From Phaeobacter sp. G2 (GTDB lineage: Bacteria > Pseudomonadota > Alphaproteobacteria > Rhodobacterales > Rhodobacteraceae): DNA of 64,000 nt. Shown here in pieces: positions 38,394 to 46,896 of this stretch. Location: the NCBI GenBank assembly GCA_025163595.1, contig CP104100.1, forward strand, positions 496,001-560,000. The letters are read 5' to 3'. A program made the position numbers and the translations under genes. Every line of letters starts with the position of its first letter. The first letter of the stretch is position 1. A model generated the notes under the pieces. It did not search any database. It was not told the DNA's origin and saw only the letters and a program-made list of their open reading frames with translations.

Positions 38394-38679
38394 AAAAGCA
38401 CCCTCATGTCATATATTTCACCCGGCGCGGGCTCTGCGCGTCGCTACCGTGCGAGTGAAACAGCCCGGTGACGCTTTTGTTGCATTCCTGTGATCCTGAT
38501 GGCGCCGCAGCTGATCACCGCCGCACGCCATGGAGAAATGGTCCGGGTGCGCCCCCCCCAGAACGCAGTTGCAGGGTCCAAGAGCCGCCCTCGGCTTTGC
38601 GCCAATGGGGGCGGTGCAAAGGCCCGTTTCCAGGTCATTGCGGGCCGATCTTCTGCCGGTTTGAAGAGGGAGGAAGAAA
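38394..38679. other. Non-coding region with a wobble hairpin
   Basis: This 286-base stretch carries the promoter of the ABC operon on the minus strand and, on the plus strand, the leader of the truncated gene at 38680. A nine-base-pair hairpin with one G-T pair (CTTTGCGCC / GGTGCAAAG) lies at 38595-38621. Nothing else is supported. Confidence 0.4.
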
Positions 38680-38798
38680 TGAAAACCAAGTTTGCTGCGG
38701 CCATCGCCGCAAGTGCTGTTCTGTGTTCAACGGTCACGGAGGCTTCGGCCGATACTCTTCGGTTTGCCCATGGCCAAGCGCAGTCTCGATCCGGATAA
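38680..38798 (+). pseudogene. 5' stub of a periplasmic binding protein gene
   Basis: GGAGGAAGAA followed by ATG begins a 39-codon frame: a clear signal peptide (MKTKFAAAIAASAVLCSTV to ASA near residue 24) and the first mature residues DTLRFAHGQAQ, the usual start of an extracytoplasmic solute-binding protein. Then it runs into a stop and unrelated sequence. The perfect ribosome site shows it was a true gene start; the rest has been deleted. Confidence 0.65.
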
Positions 38799-38819
38799 GC
38801 AGAGGCGAGGCGGCTCCGG

Positions 38820-39116
38820 TCATGTGGACACTCCCAGATCACACGCATTGAGAGCAGCAATCAGAGCCGCCCCACGGTCGTTGACCAGAAAACCCTCGCC
38901 CATCTGCGTCATCGCGTAACCGATGGCGAGCTCACGGGAGGGGTCGCAAAAGGCAAAGCTGCCGCCGGCGCCGACATGGCCAAAAGCCTGGTCTGGGATC
39001 AGGAAGCTGTCGCCGCGTGCCGGCCTTTCAGCGCTGCTGCGATTGTCCATTCGATGCATGAAGCCGCTACCGAACCGCGTCGGCTGCAGCAACATGCCAT
39101 CGCAATGGGTAGCTGA
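38820..39116 (-). pseudogene. 3' fragment of a beta-lactamase-fold serine hydrolase
   Basis: Minus-strand frame ending at 38820 encodes MLLQPTRFGSGFMHRMDNR, then GDSFLIPDQAFGHVGAGGSFAFCDP and ELAIGYAMTQMGEG, which is the C-terminal third of esterase/beta-lactamase-family (PF00144 type) hydrolases, including the HVGAGGS motif that replaces KTG. The catalytic SxxK and YxN motifs lie in the missing N-terminal part. The upstream boundary meets the Baeyer-Villiger monooxygenase fragment somewhere in 39116-39175. Confidence 0.7.
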
Positions 39117-40232
39117 TGTGGTCCGGGTAAAGCGATCGCAGGTGTCCTGGGTGAGGCCAAGGCGGGGGCAGAGACCTTTGCTGGCGTCGCGACCCACACG
39201 GCTCAATGGCCCGAGGATCTGGATGTCACGGGCAAGCGTGTCGCTTTGGTGGGCAATGGCGCCTCGGGCATGCAGGTCGCCCCGGCCATTATCGACAAGG
39301 TCGAAAAGCTGACGGTTTTTGCCCGCTCCAAGCAATGGGCCGCGCCGTTTCCGCAGTTTCAGAAAAAGGTGCCTGATCCGGTGCGCTATCTCTTGATGAC
39401 GGTGCCGCTGTATCAGCAGTGGTATCGCATCCGGCAATTCTGGACATTCAATGACCGTATCCATGAATCGCTGCAGAAGGATCCGACCTGGCCCGAACCT
39501 GACAAGGCCTTGAACGCAACAAATGACCGACACCGTCAGATCTTTACCGCGTATGTGAAGGCAGAGTTGGGGGACCGTCAGGATCTTCTGCAGGAGATGC
39601 TTCCCGATTTCCCGCCCTACGGTAAGCGCATCCTTTTGGACAATGGCTGGTACCGGACCCTGACCAAGCCAAACGCCGAGCTGGTGCCCGCGCGGCTGTC
39701 GCGGATCGAGGGCAGCACGCTGATCGCAGCAGACGGGTCAACCTCAGAGGCGGATGTTTTGGTTTATGCCACGGGCTTTAAGGCGGCTGAGATACAGTCC
39801 TCCTATGAGATCATCGGACAGGGCGGCCAGCATCTGAAGGACGCCTGGGAGACGGACAATCCCTCGGCCTATATCGGCTCGATGGTGCCGGGATTTCCGA
39901 ACTTTCTCACCATCCTTGGGCCGAATGCCGGGCTGAGACATGGCGGCAGCATGATTAAGGCAATCGAGCTGCAAACCTCGTTCATTTTGTCGATCATCAG
40001 CCGGATGTTCGAGCGGAAAGCGCAGACCGTCGCGGTGACCGTGCAGGCCCATGAAAGCTACAATGCTCGTATCGACGCGGCACATAACAAAATGGTCTGG
40101 ACCCATCAGGGCACCGAAAACGGGTATCGCAACAGTCGCGGGCGGGTGGTGGCGATTTCGCCCTGGCGCAACGATTACTTCTGGTCGCTGACCCGGGATG
40201 CCGATCCGGAGGCTTTCACATTCGAAACCTGA
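39117..40232 (+). pseudogene. Baeyer-Villiger monooxygenase, N-terminally truncated
   Basis: About 370 residues of a type I Baeyer-Villiger flavoprotein. The fingerprint FAGVATHTAQWP (FxGxxxHxxxWP) is at 39177-39212, the NADP-binding GNGASG follows near 39252, and the rest reaches the family C-terminus. The N-terminal FAD-binding GxGxxG domain of about 150 residues is absent, and the frame begins just after a stop at 39114. Without FAD binding it cannot be active. These enzymes turn ketones into esters or lactones. Confidence 0.85.
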
Positions 40233-40319
40233 TCCGCAGGTTTGGCCGGAATGGTTTTGACCTTGGGGCATTGTCTGAGCTATCGGCGGACCCAATACTG
40301 AAAATAGTAGGATGTTCGC

Positions 40320-40983
40320 ATGACCCTGGATACCGCTGATGACGACACCCGCGAACGCATCAAACGCGCGGCGATCCGGTTGTTTGCGCGGCAGGGTATT
40401 GATGGCGTGTCGGTGCGGGCGATCCTCACGGCGGCCGACGTCAAGAACTCGGCGGGCATCCATTACTATTTTCGCACCAAGGACGTCCTGATTGGAGAGC
40501 TGGTATCGGATGCTTTGACACGGACGCGGCGCAGCTCTTGATGCTCTTGATGCGCTTGAGGCCTCGGGGGCGCCGATTTCCGTACGCGACGTTGTTAATC
40601 TGATCTGCAAGGTGGAAACCACGGAAACCAACGATCCCGAAGCGCGGACCGATTTGCCCATCGGGTTTGGTCATATGCGGTTCATCTCGGTGATGCAGCT
40701 GAACCACCGCGACAAGTTCACCCAGGCGGTTGAGGCCGAAGGGGACGACAGTTTTGAACGCTGCATCGCGCATATCGCCAAGGCCTTGACCGAGGTGCCG
40801 CGCGCGGTGCTGAACCAGCGTATCGTCTTTTTCCATCAGTTCGCGCAGGCCTCTTTGTCGGCGCGCGAGGCGGCTTTTGTGCAGACAAAAGATGGCGGCA
40901 AGCTGTGGAGCGATCCGAACGCGCTGGAAAATCTAATTGATAGCCTCACGGCAGGCCTGATTTGCCCTGGCCACCTGGCCTGA
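40320..40983 (+). pseudogene. TetR-family regulator with a frameshift
   Basis: The first 73 codons give a clear TetR DNA-binding domain (IRLFARQGIDGVSVRAILTAADVKNSAGIHYYF...DVLIGEL). The frame then stops at 40539, while the +1 frame continues with AALDALDALEASGAPISVRDVVNLI and a full effector domain to 40983. One or two bases gained or lost near 40525-40535 would restore a protein of about 220 residues. It may be a real mutation or a base-call error. It probably controlled the adjacent monooxygenase gene. Confidence 0.8.
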
Positions 40984-41010
40984 GCGGGTTTTGATCCGGC
41001 CAAAACAGGA

Positions 41011-41039
41011 AACGCCGCCACGGACAGGGCGGCGTTTTT
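41011..41039 (+). terminator. Terminator after the tetR remnant
   Basis: AACGCCGCC and GGCGGCGTT form a nine-base-pair stem with a loop of about eight bases, then five T. It can also serve the minus-strand fragment ending at 41069, which has TTT after the stem. Confidence 0.8.
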
Positions 41040-41068
41040 CGTGGCTTGGGTTTGGCGTTAGGCTGGGA

Positions 41069-41265
41069 TCAGCGGGCCAGTTCGAGGATCTGCATCACAC
41101 CAGAGGGTTCGCTGATCTGGCGCGGATTGGTTTTGCCCCAGATGTCATCCATGGTGTATTCCGCGATCTTTTGCAGCTGTTCGGCTTTCACACCTACAGC
41201 CGTCAGGCTGCGCGGCATGCCAAGGTCCGCGATGAACTGATCGACCTGCTTGGAGGCTGCGGTGA
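41069..41265 (-). pseudogene. 3' fragment of an iron-type alcohol dehydrogenase gene
   Basis: Minus-strand frame encoding QVDQFIADLGMPRSLTAVGV, AEYTMDDIWGKTNPRQISE and VMQILELAR, which matches the last 60-65 residues of group III (Fe-dependent) alcohol dehydrogenases or maleylacetate reductases. All nucleotide- and metal-binding parts are missing. Similarity ends near 41265. Confidence 0.65.
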
Positions 41266-41287
41266 GGGTTCTGCCCGCTGATGGCAT

Positions 41288-41535
41288 TACATCCGATTAA
41301 AATAGAGTGGCTATTTTACGCAGACCTGCCGCTGCAGCCAAAAACTGGTTAGACTGAACAAGCTGGGTGAATGAGCCGTGACCCCAGGGCTGTTGCGACA
41401 ACGGTAAGCCTTTTCAAAGCCTGCGATCCCATTTGGATTTACCATATAGGACACGCGACGTCGGGCGGACATGGCCTGTTGAGCACAGGCCATGTCAGGC
41501 AGAAATACGCGATATTTCCCCGTTGTAGAGCCTAT
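41288..41535. other. Non-coding region with two palindromes
   Basis: No gene is supported in these 248 bases. Two perfect inverted repeats occur: TAAAATAG-agtgg-CTATTTTA at 41298-41318 and GACATGGCCTGT-tgagc-ACAGGCCATGTC at 41468-41496. The second lies 40 bases beyond the Crp/Fnr gene stop and may end its transcript; the first has the look of an operator. The region joins the decayed island to the copper cluster. Confidence 0.5.
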
Positions 41536-42252
41536 TCAGGCAGCACGAAGTATCGGTGAAGTACAGGAGCGTTCCAGCAACGCTTTACTGTCAAGAACGC
41601 GGACCTGGCTCGGCTTTGGGAGGCTGATCACGCCGACCTTTTCCAGGGCGCGGACCTGGCGAGAAACGGTTTCCAGCGTCAGGCTGGACATCTCACCAAG
41701 TTCGGCTCTGGTCACTGGTAAGTCCATTTCTTCTGGCGTACCCTGACGCATATGAAACCAGGCCAGAATGGAGGCCACGCGTTCTGCTGCGGTCTTACGC
41801 CCGAGCAGCAGCTGCCAGCGGTGCGCGTCTTCGATCTGGTCCTGCAATACACCAAACAGGTTGAGTTGCAGGCGTGGGATTTCTCTGCTGAGATCCGCAA
41901 ACCCCTCGTGGTCGCAGGTCAGCAGACGGGTGTCTCCGATGGCGCTGAGACGTCCGCCTTTTTGGCGCGGGCCAAGTGGCGAAAGCGCCTCACCGGCAAA
42001 GGTCAGGGCAAACAAGCGCGTGCCACCCTGTGGCACCGATACGTCTTCGCGCAGGGCGCCTTTCAGCACCAACCCGATGGGCAGCGGTTCTGCTCTGTCG
42101 CGCAGCAGCACCTCCCCATCGGCGAGACAGTCTTCCTCGAACCGGTTCCAAACCCGGCTCATTTCATCGGCGTTCAGCCCCCGCAGGAGTGCAGGGCAAG
42201 TGTTGTTTGGACGGAGGGAGGCCTCTGCCCAGTCGTGGTTCATCGCGTTCAT
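41536..42252 (-). CDS. Crp/Fnr-family regulator without an Fe-S motif
   Basis: A 238-residue regulator: cNMP-binding-like beta roll (about 20-140), dimer helix, and C-terminal helix-turn-helix (LPVTRAELGEMSSLTLETVSRQVRALEKVGVI, near 180-212) with the E-SR recognition pattern of the Fnr branch. Only scattered Cys (near 19 and 41) are in the sensor part, so no [4Fe-4S] cluster of Fnr type; it may be a DNR/NnrR-like or haem/redox sensor. AAGGA precedes ATG 42252. It follows the copper genes by 58 bases on the same strand. Confidence 0.85.
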   Translation of the reverse strand: MNAMNHDWAEASLRPNNTCPALLRGLNADEMSRVWNRFEEDCLADGEVLLRDRAEPLPIGLVLKGALREDVSVPQGGTRLFALTFAGEALSPLGPRQKGGRLSAIGDTRLLTCDHEGFADLSREIPRLQLNLFGVLQDQIEDAHRWQLLLGRKTAAERVASILAWFHMRQGTPEEMDLPVTRAELGEMSSLTLETVSRQVRALEKVGVISLPKPSQVRVLDSKALLERSCTSPILRAA

Positions 42253-42310
42253 CTTGAACGTCCTTGTCGTGAAAGGGTGGACAAGGGGCAGGTCGCCCCC
42301 GGCGAAAGGG

Positions 42311-42703
42311 TCAAGCCGGGAGGGGAGGTGCGCGTGTTCGATGACGTCTGGGAGAATGGGAAGAGGTCGGCAGGGGTGCGGCGCTGCGCAGCGTCGTCGT
42401 TGCGATCAACCGCAAGCGGATCCATTCCCCGACGTAGGGCGGGGCATCGGTGCCTGCAACGCTGACCTGAACGCAGGACGCATCGTGGTGAGACGCGGGA
42501 GCGTCATGGCTGGGCGTGGTGTCTTCAACAGGGATGATATCGCCTGTGTCAGTCAGCCAAACCTCTTGCTTGCCTGCGCTCGTGCACAGAACCAGCCGCA
42601 GACCCTGGGGGCCAGATGCACGCATAAACCCGTCCGGCACGGTGGCCGACCCGATCAGCGCCAGCAAAAGCAGCGCGCGTGTTATGAGGCCCGGGAGGAA
42701 CAA
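42311..42703 (-). CDS. DUF2946-like small exported protein
   Basis: A protein of about 130 residues. A hydrophobic start (LITRALLLLALIGSATV) acts as signal or anchor; then GLRLVLCTSAGKQEVWLTDTGD and a His/Asp-rich stretch (SHDAPASHHDASC) suggest metal contact. This resembles the DUF2946 group of small proteins near copper genes. The first possible start is TTG 42703, four bases past the PCuAC stop, with no good ribosome site, so the true start is unsure. Last gene of the copper operon before the regulator. Confidence 0.6.
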   Translation of the reverse strand: MFLPGLITRALLLLALIGSATVPDGFMRASGPQGLRLVLCTSAGKQEVWLTDTGDIIPVEDTTPSHDAPASHHDASCVQVSVAGTDAPPYVGEWIRLRLIATTTLRSAAPLPTSSHSPRRHRTRAPPLPA

Positions 42704-42706
42704 GGA

Positions 42707-43174
42707 CTAGTGGCCCGAATGGTCCATCTGGGAATGATCCGCCCCGTCGGCCGGGTCGACCATGAATTCCACCTCGACCTCGCCAGCCTTGCGGAAAATC
42801 AGCGTGGCCGGGATCATGTCGCCCTCTTTTGCGGTGCCCGTCAGCCCCATGAACATCACATGCATCCCGCCCGGTTCCAGGTTGACGACGTCACCTGGCG
42901 CAAGGGGAACACCGATCAGCGGCCGCATCTTGGCGATCCCGTCCTCAAAAATTGTGGTGTGCAAGGTTGTCGAGGCCGCAAAGGGCGAGCGCACACCAAG
43001 AAGCTCTTCGGGGGTCTCACCTTCGTTTGAGATGGTGATATACCCCGCAGCCGACTTGGCCGTGGCGTTGGGCGCCGGGATCGACGGGTGGATGATATGC
43101 AAATCGCCAGTCATTTGGTCGTGGGCCACAGCGGGCGCAGCCAGCAGCATAAGGGCAAGTATCGCGCGTTTCAT
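42707..43174 (-). CDS. Periplasmic copper chaperone PCuAC
   Basis: A 155-residue periplasmic copper(I)-binding protein that delivers copper to cytochrome oxidase assembly. Signal peptide 1-18 (ending AVAHD). The metal motif H(M)X10MX21HXM is exact: His72, Met83, His105, Met107. The tail adds a second possible site (ADHSQMDHSGH). AGGAGACAG precedes the ATG. It sits nine bases after the MbnH gene. Confidence 0.95.
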   Translation of the reverse strand: MKRAILALMLLAAPAVAHDQMTGDLHIIHPSIPAPNATAKSAAGYITISNEGETPEELLGVRSPFAASTTLHTTIFEDGIAKMRPLIGVPLAPGDVVNLEPGGMHVMFMGLTGTAKEGDMIPATLIFRKAGEVEVEFMVDPADGADHSQMDHSGH

Positions 43175-43183
43175 TTCTGTCTC

Positions 43184-44311
43184 CTAGGGTTGGGCCCGTT
43201 TGAGGCGGGCGGGATGATCTTTTGGCCACGGGTCGGCGTGATCCGGGTTCGTCAGTAAGCGCTTGTCGGTGAGGCTTTCGAGAAAGGCGATGAGATCGGC
43301 AATTTCCGCTTCGGTGGCGGTGAACCCCACGATCATGCCGTCCTGATTGCTGTGGCCTTCGCGGCCACCCTTGGCGTAATGGGCCAGCACGCCGCGCAGA
43401 TCAGGGATTGATCCGTCATGCATGTAGGGCGCTGTCACGGCCACATTGCGCAGGGATGGGGTGCGGAACAAACCGGCGTCGCCCGGCTCTGCGGTGAATT
43501 CGATCCGGCCCGGCGCACTGACGGGGTAGTCAGCGTATAGCCCGGTGTTATGAAAGCCGGTCTCCACCCAGGGGCTGCCCTCGCGTTTGAAATTGTCGGT
43601 GAACAACACGCCCTGATGACAGTGATAGCATTCGAACCGGTGGTCAAAGAACAGCTGCTCACCCCGTTTGGCGGCATCCGAAAGCGCATCCAGTTCGCCG
43701 CCGTATTTGAAACGGTCATAGGCACTGTCAAAGGACATCAGGCTGCGCTGAAAGGCCCCCAGCGCGCGGGTCACTGTGAACAGCTCTGGCCTGGGCTGCT
43801 GCGGGAATGCCTGTGCAAAAGCCTGCGCGTAATATGGATCCTCGGCCAGCGTCGCAAAGATACGCGCCTCCTGTCCGGTTGCGCCCATTTCATCGGGTGC
43901 TTCGCCAAACAAAGGCACAAGCGCTTGAAACTCGAGCGAGGTCATATGCGGGTTGGCCCAGGAATTCACCGGCAGGTAGGCCACGTTTGCAAGGCTGGGC
44001 GCGTTCAGCTTGCCATGGGTGCCGTGGATGCCCACAGCCACCTGGCGCCCATCCGTAAAAGCACGGCCCTGGTCGTGGCACGAGGCGCAGGCCACAGTAC
44101 CATCGCCGGACAGGCGGGCATCGTAGAACAGATGGCGGCCAAGCTCGACCTTGGCGGCGCTCATGGGGTTGTCTTCTGGTACGGAGGGGCGCGGCATCCA
44201 GTCCGGCAGGGGCCAGTCATAGGCCTCTGCCGCATCCAGGGCGAAACCCGCCCCGGATAGTAAACCTGACAGGATCACGCTCACCGCCGCACTACGCGCG
44301 GCGCTACGCAT
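43184..44311 (-). CDS. mbnH: Di-haem MauG-like enzyme, MbnH family
   Basis: A 375-residue periplasmic di-haem protein related to cytochrome c peroxidase and MauG. Signal peptide about 1-24. Haem-binding CASCH is near residue 75 and CYHCH near 228. It is paired with an MbnP-type protein; in the studied MbnH/MbnP pair MbnH oxidises a Trp of MbnP to kynurenine to create a copper site. Start: ATG 44311, in a TGATG overlap with the mbnP stop, or the GTG just before. Confidence 0.88.
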   Translation of the reverse strand: MRSAARSAAVSVILSGLLSGAGFALDAAEAYDWPLPDWMPRPSVPEDNPMSAAKVELGRHLFYDARLSGDGTVACASCHDQGRAFTDGRQVAVGIHGTHGKLNAPSLANVAYLPVNSWANPHMTSLEFQALVPLFGEAPDEMGATGQEARIFATLAEDPYYAQAFAQAFPQQPRPELFTVTRALGAFQRSLMSFDSAYDRFKYGGELDALSDAAKRGEQLFFDHRFECYHCHQGVLFTDNFKREGSPWVETGFHNTGLYADYPVSAPGRIEFTAEPGDAGLFRTPSLRNVAVTAPYMHDGSIPDLRGVLAHYAKGGREGHSNQDGMIVGFTATEAEIADLIAFLESLTDKRLLTNPDHADPWPKDHPARLKRAQP

Positions 44312-45150
44312 CACCGAACCGCGATCAACTGCTGTTCACCCGCTGCGATGTCTTTAAACGGCAAGCCAAGCTTGGTCATGACCGTATCGCAGTCGGGATC
44401 GTTCAGGAAGGACATGCAGCCGGGCGAAGTCTGGGGCGTGTTGGAGCGCATGTCAGCCTCTGCAACCACTGGCGCCGGATCGATGACCAGCGTTTGTTTC
44501 GCCGGATCAAACCCATCAAAGCTGACCGCCATCAGGTTGGGGTTCTTGCAGGGGGCGGCGGGGGCGTCTGTCTTGCCACCGGATTTGCACATGGTCGAGC
44601 CAAGGTGCAGGAACCAGCCTTTTGGCCCGCTTGCTGCTTTGTCTGTCGGCACCATATCGATACGCACGAACTTGTAGCCGCCGCGCCAGTTCCAGAACAT
44701 CGAGGTCAGGTTGAGCGGCGTGGGGGCGGTGGTGGGGTCGCCGTGGTTCATCTCAAACGGCACACCGACGTTGAAAGCCACACCAGTATAGCTGCCCTCA
44801 GCAGCAGTGCCAGCCAGCTGGGTGTTCAGGGGCGCGGTGCCATTGGCGCAAGCGGCACTGCCATCTTCAAAATCCAGCAGGGCGACGCCGTCATGCTGAA
44901 AGGCGCTTTCGGTCAAAGTCACAGGGTTGCGTGTGCCGTCAGCCGCGATCATCGCCACATCGCTGACATAGAGGCGGAAATCCGTGCCGCGCACCGCAGC
45001 ACCCGTGCTTCCGATGTCGGTGAAGGTCGCGTCGCAGGCAAAGGGGTGCCCGCCGATTTCGGCGGCAAAATTGATCTTAACGTCCTGATCTGCAAAGGCA
45101 GCGGTCGCGGGAAGCAGGGCGGCAAGGGCCGCTTGAAGAGCGAGTTTCAT
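44311..45150 (-). CDS. mbnP: MbnP-family copper-binding partner protein
   Basis: A 279-residue exported protein of the metallo-mystery-pair (four-Cys motif) family. Signal peptide 1-20. Key residues: Cys39, Cys101, Cys188, Cys201, Cys245 and Cys254, and the family hallmark MFWNWRGGYKFVRID with Trp153 and Trp155, one of which is expected to be converted to kynurenine by MbnH. His35, His86, His136 and His182 are candidate metal ligands. GGAGACTT precedes the ATG. The stop overlaps the mbnH start. Confidence 0.88.
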   Translation of the reverse strand: MKLALQAALAALLPATAAFADQDVKINFAAEIGGHPFACDATFTDIGSTGAAVRGTDFRLYVSDVAMIAADGTRNPVTLTESAFQHDGVALLDFEDGSAACANGTAPLNTQLAGTAAEGSYTGVAFNVGVPFEMNHGDPTTAPTPLNLTSMFWNWRGGYKFVRIDMVPTDKAASGPKGWFLHLGSTMCKSGGKTDAPAAPCKNPNLMAVSFDGFDPAKQTLVIDPAPVVAEADMRSNTPQTSPGCMSFLNDPDCDTVMTKLGLPFKDIAAGEQQLIAVR

Positions 45151-45213
45151 GGAAGTCTCCAGAGGTCTGATCCGGCGCGCGGGCCGGGTGTTTCACAAAT
45201 AGATTCGCAAAGT

Positions 45214-45573
45214 TCAGACGATAGGAGGCGCACGCGCCGGACGGGTCGCCTCGGCGGAGAGGGTTTCCAGAACGTGGGATTGTGGCACCCAGTGGGGCGG
45301 GGAGAAGGACAGTTCGGCAACGGAGGCAACCAGCGGCGGCTCTGGCAGAGCCATGGCCGCCTGCAAGCGGCAGGCTTCACACTCCTGCGTGGCGCCCGGG
45401 TCATCCGAGCCACCACAGATCGAAGCGGCGTCAATGCCAAAGAGCGCCGCATAGTCCAGCACTGCTTGGTCTGTTTGCGATGGCGCACGATGTGCAAATC
45501 CGGTGGTTGCCAAAGCAACGGTCAGCAGCACGACCAGCGCGCGCAGAGGGAATATGATTTGCCAAATCTTCAT
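45214..45573 (-). CDS. DUF2946-like small exported protein, first gene of the copper operon
   Basis: A 119-residue protein with an N-terminal hydrophobic signal (IIFPLRALVVLLTVALATTGFAH), then a short domain with ICGGSDDPG and ECEACRLQAA, giving three Cys that could bind copper or form a disulfide, and a Pro-rich tail. It resembles the other small protein of the cluster (42311-42703) in layout. ATG 45573 is taken as start; a GTG two codons earlier is possible. It lies 63 bases before mbnP. Confidence 0.65.
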   Translation of the reverse strand: MKIWQIIFPLRALVVLLTVALATTGFAHRAPSQTDQAVLDYAALFGIDAASICGGSDDPGATQECEACRLQAAMALPEPPLVASVAELSFSPPHWVPQSHVLETLSAEATRPARAPPIV

Positions 45574-45918
45574 CGCCACAGCTGGCTAGCACACACTGCC
45601 GGATCCGCAAGCGTTCATAGGGTCGCATCCCCTGTGGTCCAGCGCGATGTTCCTTTGCAGCCTGTTTGTCTGCAATCAGCAGGGCGGCCCCATGGTTGAT
45701 ATTTGGACCGGCGCGCTCTTGGTTGCCCTTTGTTCGCAACATCAGAGCGCTGTTTGATTAGAAAAACTCTTGGGTGCCGGTGTTGAAAGTGGACCACACA
45801 TCAAGTTCGCTACCGTTCTCTTGGGGTTCCCAGTCGCCCAAGCAACCTGTTTCGGTTCATGGTCCATTCCGCAGGTCGTTTCTGAAGCAGGCGTTTCGCC
45901 TGGTATGCGGCCTGACCT
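45574..45918. other. Gap between the nitrate and copper operons
   Basis: No gene is supported. It must hold the terminator of the nitrate operon and the promoter of the copper operon. A perfect hairpin CAGGCG-ttt-CGCCTG is at 45889-45903, just after the cobA stop, but lacks a T-run. No Fnr-type TTGAT-N4-ATCAA box was found. Confidence 0.45.
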
Positions 45919-46896
45919 TTAGCCTCGCTGTGGGGAGTTAACTTCTGTCGCGGACTGGGGCCAAGTCAGGAACATGATCGCCGGATTTGAGATCCCAGAG
46001 GTTTCGATTGTCTCGAGCAGGGTCGAGGCGCGACACTTGGCGATTACCTGATCACTTTGCTGGGCACGGGAAACGATGTCGATGGAGACCTGTTTTTCCA
46101 GACCGGCCTCAATCAGGGCCTTGGCGGTATTTGCGGCGGCCCCAACCCCCATGTAGATCGCCATACGGGTTCCAGGTTGCAGCTGGGCAATCCAATTGGC
46201 ATTGCCCGCATCCTTTGCTGTCTGGCCGGTGGCCAGAACCAGGGTGTCACAGGTGCCGCGTTCTGTCAGGAACCCACCCAATGCAGCTGAGGCTGCGCTG
46301 GCTGCGGTGACACCGGGGATGATTTCATAGGGAATATCTGCCGCATCCAGGGCATCAATCTCTTCGGCCCCCCGGGCAAAGACGCCAGGGTCGCCGCACT
46401 TCAACCGCACGACCCGTTGCCCCTGACCGGCAATGGCCACCAGCGCCTGCGAGATCTTTTCTTGTGGCCAGTGGTGGCAGCCTGGGGCCTTGCCCACATA
46501 AATGCGTTTTGCATTTGCAGGGGCCAAATCCAGCACTTCGGGGTCAATCAAGCGGTCAAAAAAGATCACATCGGCCTCTTGCAGGCGCTGTGCCCCGCGC
46601 AGGGTGATCAGATCCTTGCAACCGGGGCCGGCGCCAACCAGCGCCACTGACCCCACCTGCTGATTTCTGGGAATGGATCTGTCAGTGGCGTGCCACAGCC
46701 CGGATGCCATCTGGCGTAATTGGCGCAAGCTCGCGCTCCTGCGGGCGAGGACAGAAAGCTCCACAACAGCAGGTGTAGACTCTGCCAGACGCGCGGCAAA
46801 CCGTCGAAGCCCCCGCAGGGGGGCTGCTGATCTAGGGGTTTCGGCTCCAGCAAGGGAACGACCTGTCAGGGGCTGCAAAAGGGGGAAGGTCTTCAT
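45919..46896 (-). CDS. cobA: Uroporphyrinogen-III C-methyltransferase
   Basis: SAM-dependent methylation of uroporphyrinogen III to precorrin-2, needed for the siroheme of nitrite reductase. The core (about 83-315) has VALVGAGPGCKDLITLRG, VRLKCGDPGVFARGAEE and PYEIIPGVTAASAASAALG, diagnostic for SUMT. The first 80 residues are an extension (ARRSASLRQLRQMASGLW) not part of the usual SUMT; it does not show a precorrin dehydrogenase Rossmann motif. Last gene of the nitrate operon, overlapping the TrpD-like gene. Confidence 0.92.
   Translation of the reverse strand: MKTFPLLQPLTGRSLAGAETPRSAAPLRGLRRFAARLAESTPAVVELSVLARRSASLRQLRQMASGLWHATDRSIPRNQQVGSVALVGAGPGCKDLITLRGAQRLQEADVIFFDRLIDPEVLDLAPANAKRIYVGKAPGCHHWPQEKISQALVAIAGQGQRVVRLKCGDPGVFARGAEEIDALDAADIPYEIIPGVTAASAASAALGGFLTERGTCDTLVLATGQTAKDAGNANWIAQLQPGTRMAIYMGVGAAANTAKALIEAGLEKQVSIDIVSRAQQSDQVIAKCRASTLLETIETSGISNPAIMFLTWPQSATEVNSPQRG

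Follow-up and report, generated by a model that had tools for sequence, protein, structure and literature searches.

The 64,000-nucleotide (nt) stretch of the Phaeobacter sp. G2 genome analysed here (hereafter the window; contig CP104100.1, positions 496,001 to 560,000) contains a compact set of copper-related genes on its minus strand, arranged in the order sp1-mbnP-mbnH-pcuAC-sp2-crp with gaps of 63, -4, 9, 3, and 58 nt between successive genes. The two small genes, sp1 and sp2, resemble the leaders CruR and CutF, and it is considered probable that the set is a copper-acquisition or copper-assembly operon run by two translation-arrest leaders of this kind. Its features are as follows (positions refer to the window; aa, amino acids; SD, Shine-Dalgarno sequence):

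45214..45579, minus strand: sp1, candidate CruR/CutF-type leader, 121 aa (motifs; 16-row alignment)
45151..45213, minus strand: sp1-mbnP junction, 63 nt (fold and duplex energies)
44311..45150, minus strand: MbnP, copper-binding protein family, 279 aa (TIGR04052, 286.8 bits, cut-off 140; PDB 7l6g, E 5.8e-45)
43184..44314, minus strand: MbnH, MauG-like di-haem enzyme, 376 aa (TIGR04039, 397 bits, cut-off 362.85; PDB 6e1c, E 5e-93)
42707..43174, minus strand: PCuAC copper chaperone, 155 aa (PF04314, 104.6 bits; motif)
42311..42703, minus strand: sp2, candidate DUF2946-like leader, 130 aa (PF11162, 22.6 bits, gathering threshold 23.7; alignment of five)
42253..42310, minus strand: sp2-crp junction, 58 nt (fold z score; hairpin)
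41536..42252, minus strand: Crp/Fnr-family regulator, 238 aa (HTH_Crp_2, PF13545, 50.7 bits; five orthologs aligned)

The family assignments of MbnP, MbnH, and PCuAC are firm. An earlier note on this DNA had described a MauG-like di-haem enzyme overlapping a six-cysteine partner with the motif FWNWRGGYKF, a PCuAC protein with an exact metal-binding motif, and an adjacent Crp/Fnr gene, all of which was borne out. Both members of the MbnP-MbnH pair (together MbnPH), known as the "metallo-mystery pair", exceed the curated cut-offs of their families, and their genes overlap by 4 nt. MbnP has six cysteines (residues 39, 101, 188, 201, 245, and 254) and the FWNWRGGYKF motif from residue 152, which includes Trp153 and Trp155; the WxW pattern, His136, and His182 are invariant in all 15 aligned MbnP sequences. 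MbnH contains two CXXCH motifs (residues 76 and 229), and PCuAC matches H-X10-M-X21-H-X-M exactly from residue 72, with several PCuAC chains as its relatives of solved structure. The Crp/Fnr gene belongs to the set, although it lies beyond the end that the earlier note had drawn for it. MbnP is 97% identical to its counterpart in the closest record, an uncultured Pseudophaeobacter genome bin. The assembly containing the window encodes a single MbnP, and MbnP turned up in 12 of the 394 genomes sampled for the bacterial family and in 20 of the 398 sampled for the phylum (the present genome being counted in both), with no MbnP in the one genome of the same genus in the family draw.

The sp1 protein has an N-terminus that resembles a signal peptide by eye (an alternative start codon, ATG, lies at 45573), Cys55, a CXXC motif (Cys67 and Cys70; CEAC), then 45 residues, the sequence RAPP (residues 116-119), two further residues, and the stop codon. 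Among the 363 open reading frames (ORFs) of at least 60 aa in the window, only sp1 and sp2 carry R-[AG]-P-P with no more than eight residues after it. An alignment of 16 sp1 homologs, which were chosen for their RAPP or RGPP ending, showed the three cysteines, Arg116, and Pro118-119 to be invariant in all 16 and position 117 to be Ala or Gly only; a further sequence outside this alignment (L013) has TGPP at the position of RAPP and an RAPP just before it. Both small proteins had been called DUF2946-like in the earlier note; sp2 ends in RAPP and scores just under the gathering threshold, and sp1 had no match to PF11162 up to an E value of 1 and thus stands outside the Pfam family as modelled, the likeness being one of motifs.

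These motifs are those of CruR (bp2923) of Bordetella pertussis, an exported small protein that is, like sp1, encoded by the first gene of a copper operon and characterised by CXXC-45-RAPP (PMC9426467; for this and all other papers cited by PMC number, statements refer to the portions of text available). The spacing in sp1 is exactly 45 residues, where the definition of the signature allows 45 +/- 1-2. The CruR nascent chain senses copper via CXXC and arrests at RAPP, and copper relieves the arrest, which turns the operon off (PMC9426467); in vitro, the third and fourth codons of RAPP occupy the P and A sites of the arrested ribosome (PMC12992588). MbnPH-like and PcuAC genes are named among the CruR operons, and the legend of Fig. 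7 of the same paper describes DUF2946 genes as "systematically" first in operons (PMC9426467), a position that sp1 also takes, 63 nt ahead of mbnP and on the same strand, presumably on a single transcript with the copper genes. The present locus differs from the CruR system in its 63-nt junction, in the pairing of the SD region with the leader tail, and in an additional leader placed internally, ahead of a Crp/Fnr gene. ApdA, ApdP, and other small RAPP/RGPP proteins likewise are small exported proteins with a C-terminal RAPP encoded upstream of a regulated gene, but ApdA and ApdP serve protein localization genes (PMC10951233, PMC12992588), whereas the cysteine motif here points to copper. By analogy with these systems, sp1 and sp2 are most likely nascent-chain copper sensors that stall the ribosome, rather than partner proteins.

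The 3' end of sp1 is complementary to the region in front of mbnP. The last codon and the stop codon of sp1 (GUCUGA, 45219-45214) base-pair with UCAGAC (45170-45165), and CUCC of the two proline codons pairs with the mbnP SD, GGAG (45160-45157). The junction folds with -28.7 kcal/mol (z = -1.8) and the duplex has -15.4 kcal/mol, calculated for the identical junction of L002, the near-identical record under which the junctions of the window enter the junction set. In the fold of that junction all four nucleotides of the SD are paired with the sp1 tail; leader pairing over the SD, as described for CutF, is thus predicted at sp1-mbnP and not at sp2-crp. Among the six junctions folded in all, z scores of -4.1 (L003), -2.7 (L017), -1.0 (L004), and -3.3 (L015) were also obtained.

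Co-adaptation of tail and SD was assessed across the leader family by comparing the duplex energy of each leader tail and its own SD region with the energies for swapped tails. Of the 60 leaders that passed the script filter, 58 were followed by a frame; restriction to gaps of 20-115 nt and removal of the duplicate L001 left 43 junctions, 35 with a recognised SD 4-mer; these junctions share ancestry and are not independent, and their start codons were picked by script, with some surely wrong (e.g., L007). Own tails gave a mean of -12.72 kcal/mol as compared to -9.21 +/- 0.39 kcal/mol for permuted tails (z = -9.1; reached in none of 5000 permutations). The same was seen for MbnP leaders only (-14.46 vs. 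-10.55, z = -5.3, n = 16) and for all other leaders (-11.69 vs. -8.71, n = 27), again with none of 5000 permutations reaching the observed value. This signal was absent from four controls, which used the opening 25 nt of the gene (z = -0.2), a stretch at +60 (z = +2.1), and leader segments lying 30 and 60 nt further upstream (z = 0.0 and -0.3). The tail-SD complementarity thus is a property of the leader family.

Several other results weigh against a strong RNA switch at these junctions. In the predictions, masking of the tail opens the SD only slightly and unevenly, by a mean of 0.104 over 35 junctions as compared to 0.059 after tails were swapped (p = 0.015); the value is +0.04 for sp1-mbnP in L002 and negative in 8 of the 35, most strongly in L006 (-0.70) and L017 (-0.30). 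The SD core was paired in 29 of the 35 junctions and in 26.0 +/- 2.1 with swapped tails (568 of 5000 permutations had as many), and pairing by the Pro-Pro codons, present in 13 of 35, was not enriched over the 15.9 seen after swapping. The sp1 tail of the window ranks at only 0.33 among all tails on its own SD region, and the fold z scores of the sp1-mbnP junction and of L004 (-1.8 and -1.0, as given above) are weak. The idea that Pro-Pro codons serve as a family-wide anti-SD, which had arisen from a handful of folds, was therefore dropped, as was SD opening as a strong switch. Since SD-core pairing, Pro-Pro pairing, and opening are weak, we only infer from the complementarity that stalling would control masking of the SD. 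A mode of action that dispenses with masking is Rho-dependent termination, as in Bordetella CruR; it would fit the motif spacing shared with CruR and the weak modelled opening of the SD, but the junction has 63 nt as compared to 162 bp in Bordetella (PMC9426467), and the strong co-adaptation of tails and SD regions throughout the family would be needless for termination by Rho, which makes this explanation rather unlikely for sp1.

The second leader is of a different type. sp2 has only two cysteines, Cys40 and Cys77, with CVQV in place of CXXC, and RAPP at residues 124-127; RAPP and Cys40 are kept in all five aligned homologs, that of the window included. A profile of these five sequences matched 38 of the 394 family genomes, of which 30 loci were read (eight were left unread). 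By a reading script that favoured frames ending in PP, the terminal motif is R[AG]PP in 29 of the 30 and RDPP in the other, with CXXC present in six and absent from 24. The next gene is, by pattern, PepSY_TM-like in 14 and codes for a substrate-binding protein in three, and others of these leaders precede PCuAC, YcnI/CopC-type, TonB-receptor-like, or Crp/Fnr genes (by eye). When the analysis was restricted to close homologs (approximately 100 bits or more, or in the five-sequence alignment; eight distinct loci), the next gene was Crp/Fnr in five (the window as L002, L004, L005, L067, and L068), a binding protein in two (L017 and L069), and PepSY_TM in one (L003). In Roseobacter GAI101 (L017) the binding-protein gene lies 168 nt past sp2, and the PepSY_TM gene past sp2 in L003 is that of Marivivens. 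Conversely, the closest orthologs of the Crp/Fnr regulator (>240 bits; 3 of 384 genomes drawn, including this one) are all encoded after sp2, and the next match (G039, 34% identical) lies 126 nt after a different leader with CXXC and RAPP; for the other five matches at E 1e-20, the stretch read contained no leader. Two further RAPP leaders were noted, one before a distant Crp/Fnr gene (L109) and one before a 455-codon frame (L042).

The sp2-crp junction folds with -34.3 kcal/mol (z = -3.4), and a hairpin formed by CCUUGUC (42286-42280) and GACAAGG (42268-42262) encloses the crp SD; this hairpin is present in all five distinct leader-Crp junctions folded. These junctions also speak against a common masking mechanism, since they lack tail-SD co-adaptation (z = -0.3, n = 5), with the crp SD placed in a hairpin of its own and the sp2 tail pairing with it no better than other tails do (rank 0.86). 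This lack of preferential pairing and the missing second CXXC cysteine would fit a reading of sp2 as a degenerate leader that has ceased to sense copper and is merely placed before crp. Such decay appears improbable in view of the invariant RAPP and Cys40 in the five aligned homologs and of the 24 profile loci without CXXC, as almost all of the 30 loci keep R[AG]PP and many lie before copper genes, which suggests a stable type. sp2 may be a leader of altered type, the second in the operon, with control over the Crp/Fnr gene that follows. The five aligned orthologs of this regulator share no conserved N-terminal cysteine cluster, and the sequence ETVSRQ is presumably an FNR-like recognition helix. 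FNR-type boxes were considered as its target within the window and rejected: the 81 loose matches (60 expected; not reached by any of 100 shuffles) are spread over the window, and a comparison of eight regions upstream of sp1 (the sp1 start being guessed for L098) showed no conserved box. Predicted promoters and terminators in 41200-46000 were near chance (2 vs. 1.1 and 5 vs. 4.4, respectively), and an Rfam scan of 41000-46500 revealed nothing credible.

The occurrence of leaders at mbnP genes was determined for 29 distinct MbnP loci. These 29 are not a random sample: 22 of them stem from a search for close relatives, two Granulosicoccus and three Polyangia/Myxococcales loci among them. L002 stands for the window, and L040 and L044 belong to one genome. 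In 17 of the 29, mostly Rhodobacteraceae, a leader with CXXC and R[AG]PP ends within 100 nt of mbnP; two more have such a leader within 1.5 kb, and three have an RGPP leader without CXXC, so that an RAPP/RGPP leader is present at most 1.5 kb upstream in 22 of 29. The script found none in the remaining seven (L010, L012, L018, L021, L022, L023, and L036). Of these, L012 carries a pair of leaders further away, over 2.9 kb upstream, and in L036 a frameshift splits the leader. The link is rare outside the Rhodobacteraceae, which counts against the leader explanation: 3 of the 19 loci scanned in the phylum draw had a leader-like R[AG]PP ORF (L045, L046, and L048), and L046 is a Rhodobacteraceae locus counted among the 29, leaving 2 of 18 further loci. 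The association of leader and MbnP is mainly a Rhodobacteraceae trait. In Yoonia vestfoldensis (L019:5947-7168) the MbnH homolog consists of two short fragments and MbnP seems internally shortened; the leader there keeps CXXC and RGPP.

The comparison of gene order proposed in the earlier note showed not only this recurrence but also retention of the leaders where MbnPH is absent. Within the 10 kb that were read, genome G052 has sp1-sp2-crp and lacks mbnP, mbnH, and pcuAC, and G262 has sp1-pcuAC-sp2-crp followed by a substrate-binding protein gene, without MbnPH; neither genome had an MbnP match. The tandem arrest leaders before crp in G052 (L097:3232-4935) constitute a natural test case. The earlier note had regarded the two small proteins as undescribed partners of MbnP and MbnH, a view that would suit their exported appearance, their Cys and His residues, and their adjacency, and that would make them periplasmic copper ligands or chaperones. 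Their motifs, however, are those of the copper-sensing leaders CruR and CutF, which were described in 2022-2023. What is conserved in them is the C-terminal RAPP or RGPP (in the 16 sp1 homologs chosen for it and in 29 of the 30 sp2-profile loci), their homologs head other copper genes, and CutF and CruR are reported as undetected in cells or proteomes (PMC9973294, PMC9426467). The leaders also persist without MbnPH, as cis-acting leaders behave. The partner role was rejected and is held to be very improbable.

The following course of events is proposed for the operon. sp1 would be translated and exported, and at low copper the ribosome would stall at RAPP and hold the 3' end of sp1, which then could not pair with the mbnP SD region, so that MbnP, MbnH, and PCuAC would be made. 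Plentiful copper would bind to the CXXC of the nascent chain and relieve the stall, whereupon the end of sp1 would pair over the SD and silence the operon. MbnH would convert a Trp of MbnP and thereby build its copper site, and MbnP and PCuAC would carry copper to cuproenzymes. A conversion of Trp to kynurenine has reportedly been found in MbnP. The arrangement would be a variant in which a CruR-type sensor is combined with a CutF-type output. CutF of Rhodobacter capsulatus also is a cotranslationally exported copper sensor with a Pro-rich end and a stem-loop that masks the next SD, but it has CXXXC, its stall is enhanced by copper, which turns the operon on, and its target is a multicopper oxidase (PMC9973294).

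Expression at low copper is thus suggested by analogy with CruR, and as CutF answers copper in the opposite way, homology does not fix the sign of the response. With the CutF sign, copper would enhance arrest, the operon would be on at copper excess, and MbnP and PCuAC would act as periplasmic copper sinks for tolerance. CutF comes from a related alphaproteobacterium, its stem-loop over the SD and its short junction recur here, and the pairing of the sp1 tail with the SD is CutF-like. On the other hand, sp1 has the CXXC of CruR at its exact 45-residue spacing, acquisition-type genes are frequent neighbours within the leader family (the 14 PepSY_TM-like and three substrate-binding proteins named above), and expression of the CruR operon peaks when copper is limiting (PMC13038864). 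Expression at low copper is preferred as considerably the more probable sign because of the CruR motif with its spacing and the acquisition-type neighbours, and the CutF sign is regarded as unlikely. As a tentative extension, the operon may represent a two-tier circuit in which copper acquisition is gated by a CXXC leader and a dedicated Crp/Fnr regulator by the other leader, whose metal-site signature differs; metal sensing by the nascent chain would thereby be relayed to transcription. An RNA switch might then be common to many Rhodobacteraceae leaders, with the ribosome-binding region of the next gene masked by the very codons on which the ribosome stalls.

The earlier note had also placed MbnPH in general copper handling and not in methanobactin synthesis, and had proposed a genome-wide check for methanobactin genes. 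The genome encodes two PF05114 proteins, which score 351.7 and 373.6 bits with the bufferin maturase BufB (cut-off 310) and approximately 54 bits with MbnB (cut-off 325); their neighbours are HvfC-like with 45.8 and 49.7 bits, below the family cut-off of 142. MbnC had no match up to an E value of 10 in the genome, and mbnA was not searched. As far as these searches reach, a methanobactin locus elsewhere in the genome was rejected, as the PF05114 proteins are bufferin maturases. The general role is consistent with this result and with the linkage to PCuAC; it is not new, since the conservation of the MbnP-MbnH pair far beyond methanobactin producers was described in 2013 (PMC3621798). In comparison to the pair as known, the locus described here is linked to PCuAC and arrest leaders, in a genome without an MbnC match and without an MNIO protein of the MbnB type over the cut-off. 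The two bufferin-type clusters of this genome (L104:2919-5292 and L105:3597-5281) each contain an MNIO protein assigned to BufB and a weakly HvfC-like protein, and one also codes for a 203-aa protein with weak similarity to BufA2 (16.2 bits, cut-off 60).

To our knowledge, no clear role has so far been assigned to MbnP and MbnH outside methanobactin makers. The leaders near 22 of 29 MbnP loci tie MbnPH, at least in the Rhodobacteraceae, to copper homeostasis and predict when the pair is made. That CruR homologs occur before MbnPH-like genes is already in print (PMC9426467). New here are the two unlike leaders in one operon, the leader-Crp/Fnr unit, and the tail-SD co-adaptation: no mention of a Crp/Fnr target, of two leaders per operon, or of a statistical tail-SD test was found in the portions available of the literature searched, supplements and subscription papers aside. 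In the main text of PMC9973294, which lists 5,334 CutF-like proteins and mentions NosR/NirR regulators, "Crp" and MbnP have zero occurrences; the ground of RNA motifs is partly covered there, as "putative intergenic RNA motifs" were examined downstream of cutF-like genes. Through a leader-Crp/Fnr unit, ribosome stalling could be coupled to a programme of transcription, and the co-adaptation of tail and SD offers, for a large leader family, a mechanism that can be put directly to the test.

The region downstream of crp (38500-41300 of the window) contains gene fragments. By eye, these include a flavin-monooxygenase-like frame split in two (38923..39312 and 39246..40232) and, at 41287..41069, a short stretch similar to the C-terminus of an alcohol dehydrogenase. 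Marivita (L004) and EhC02 (L005/L099) have the full gene order and, at the place of these fragments, an ATP-binding cassette (ABC) importer gene after crp; it codes for a periplasmic binding protein (Pfam for L004, phmmer for both) and is followed by permease and ATPase frames (by eye). Two more RAPP leaders occur in the genome containing the window. One, with CPDC (L103:5090..4632; G000:C1:3348000-3357000), heads a second PCuAC gene, and the other, with CDWC (L102:6157..5783; G000:C1:2234000-2244000), heads the genes of a substrate-binding protein, a permease, and an ATPase of an ABC importer of the siderophore/B12 type, which is a candidate copper or chalkophore importer.

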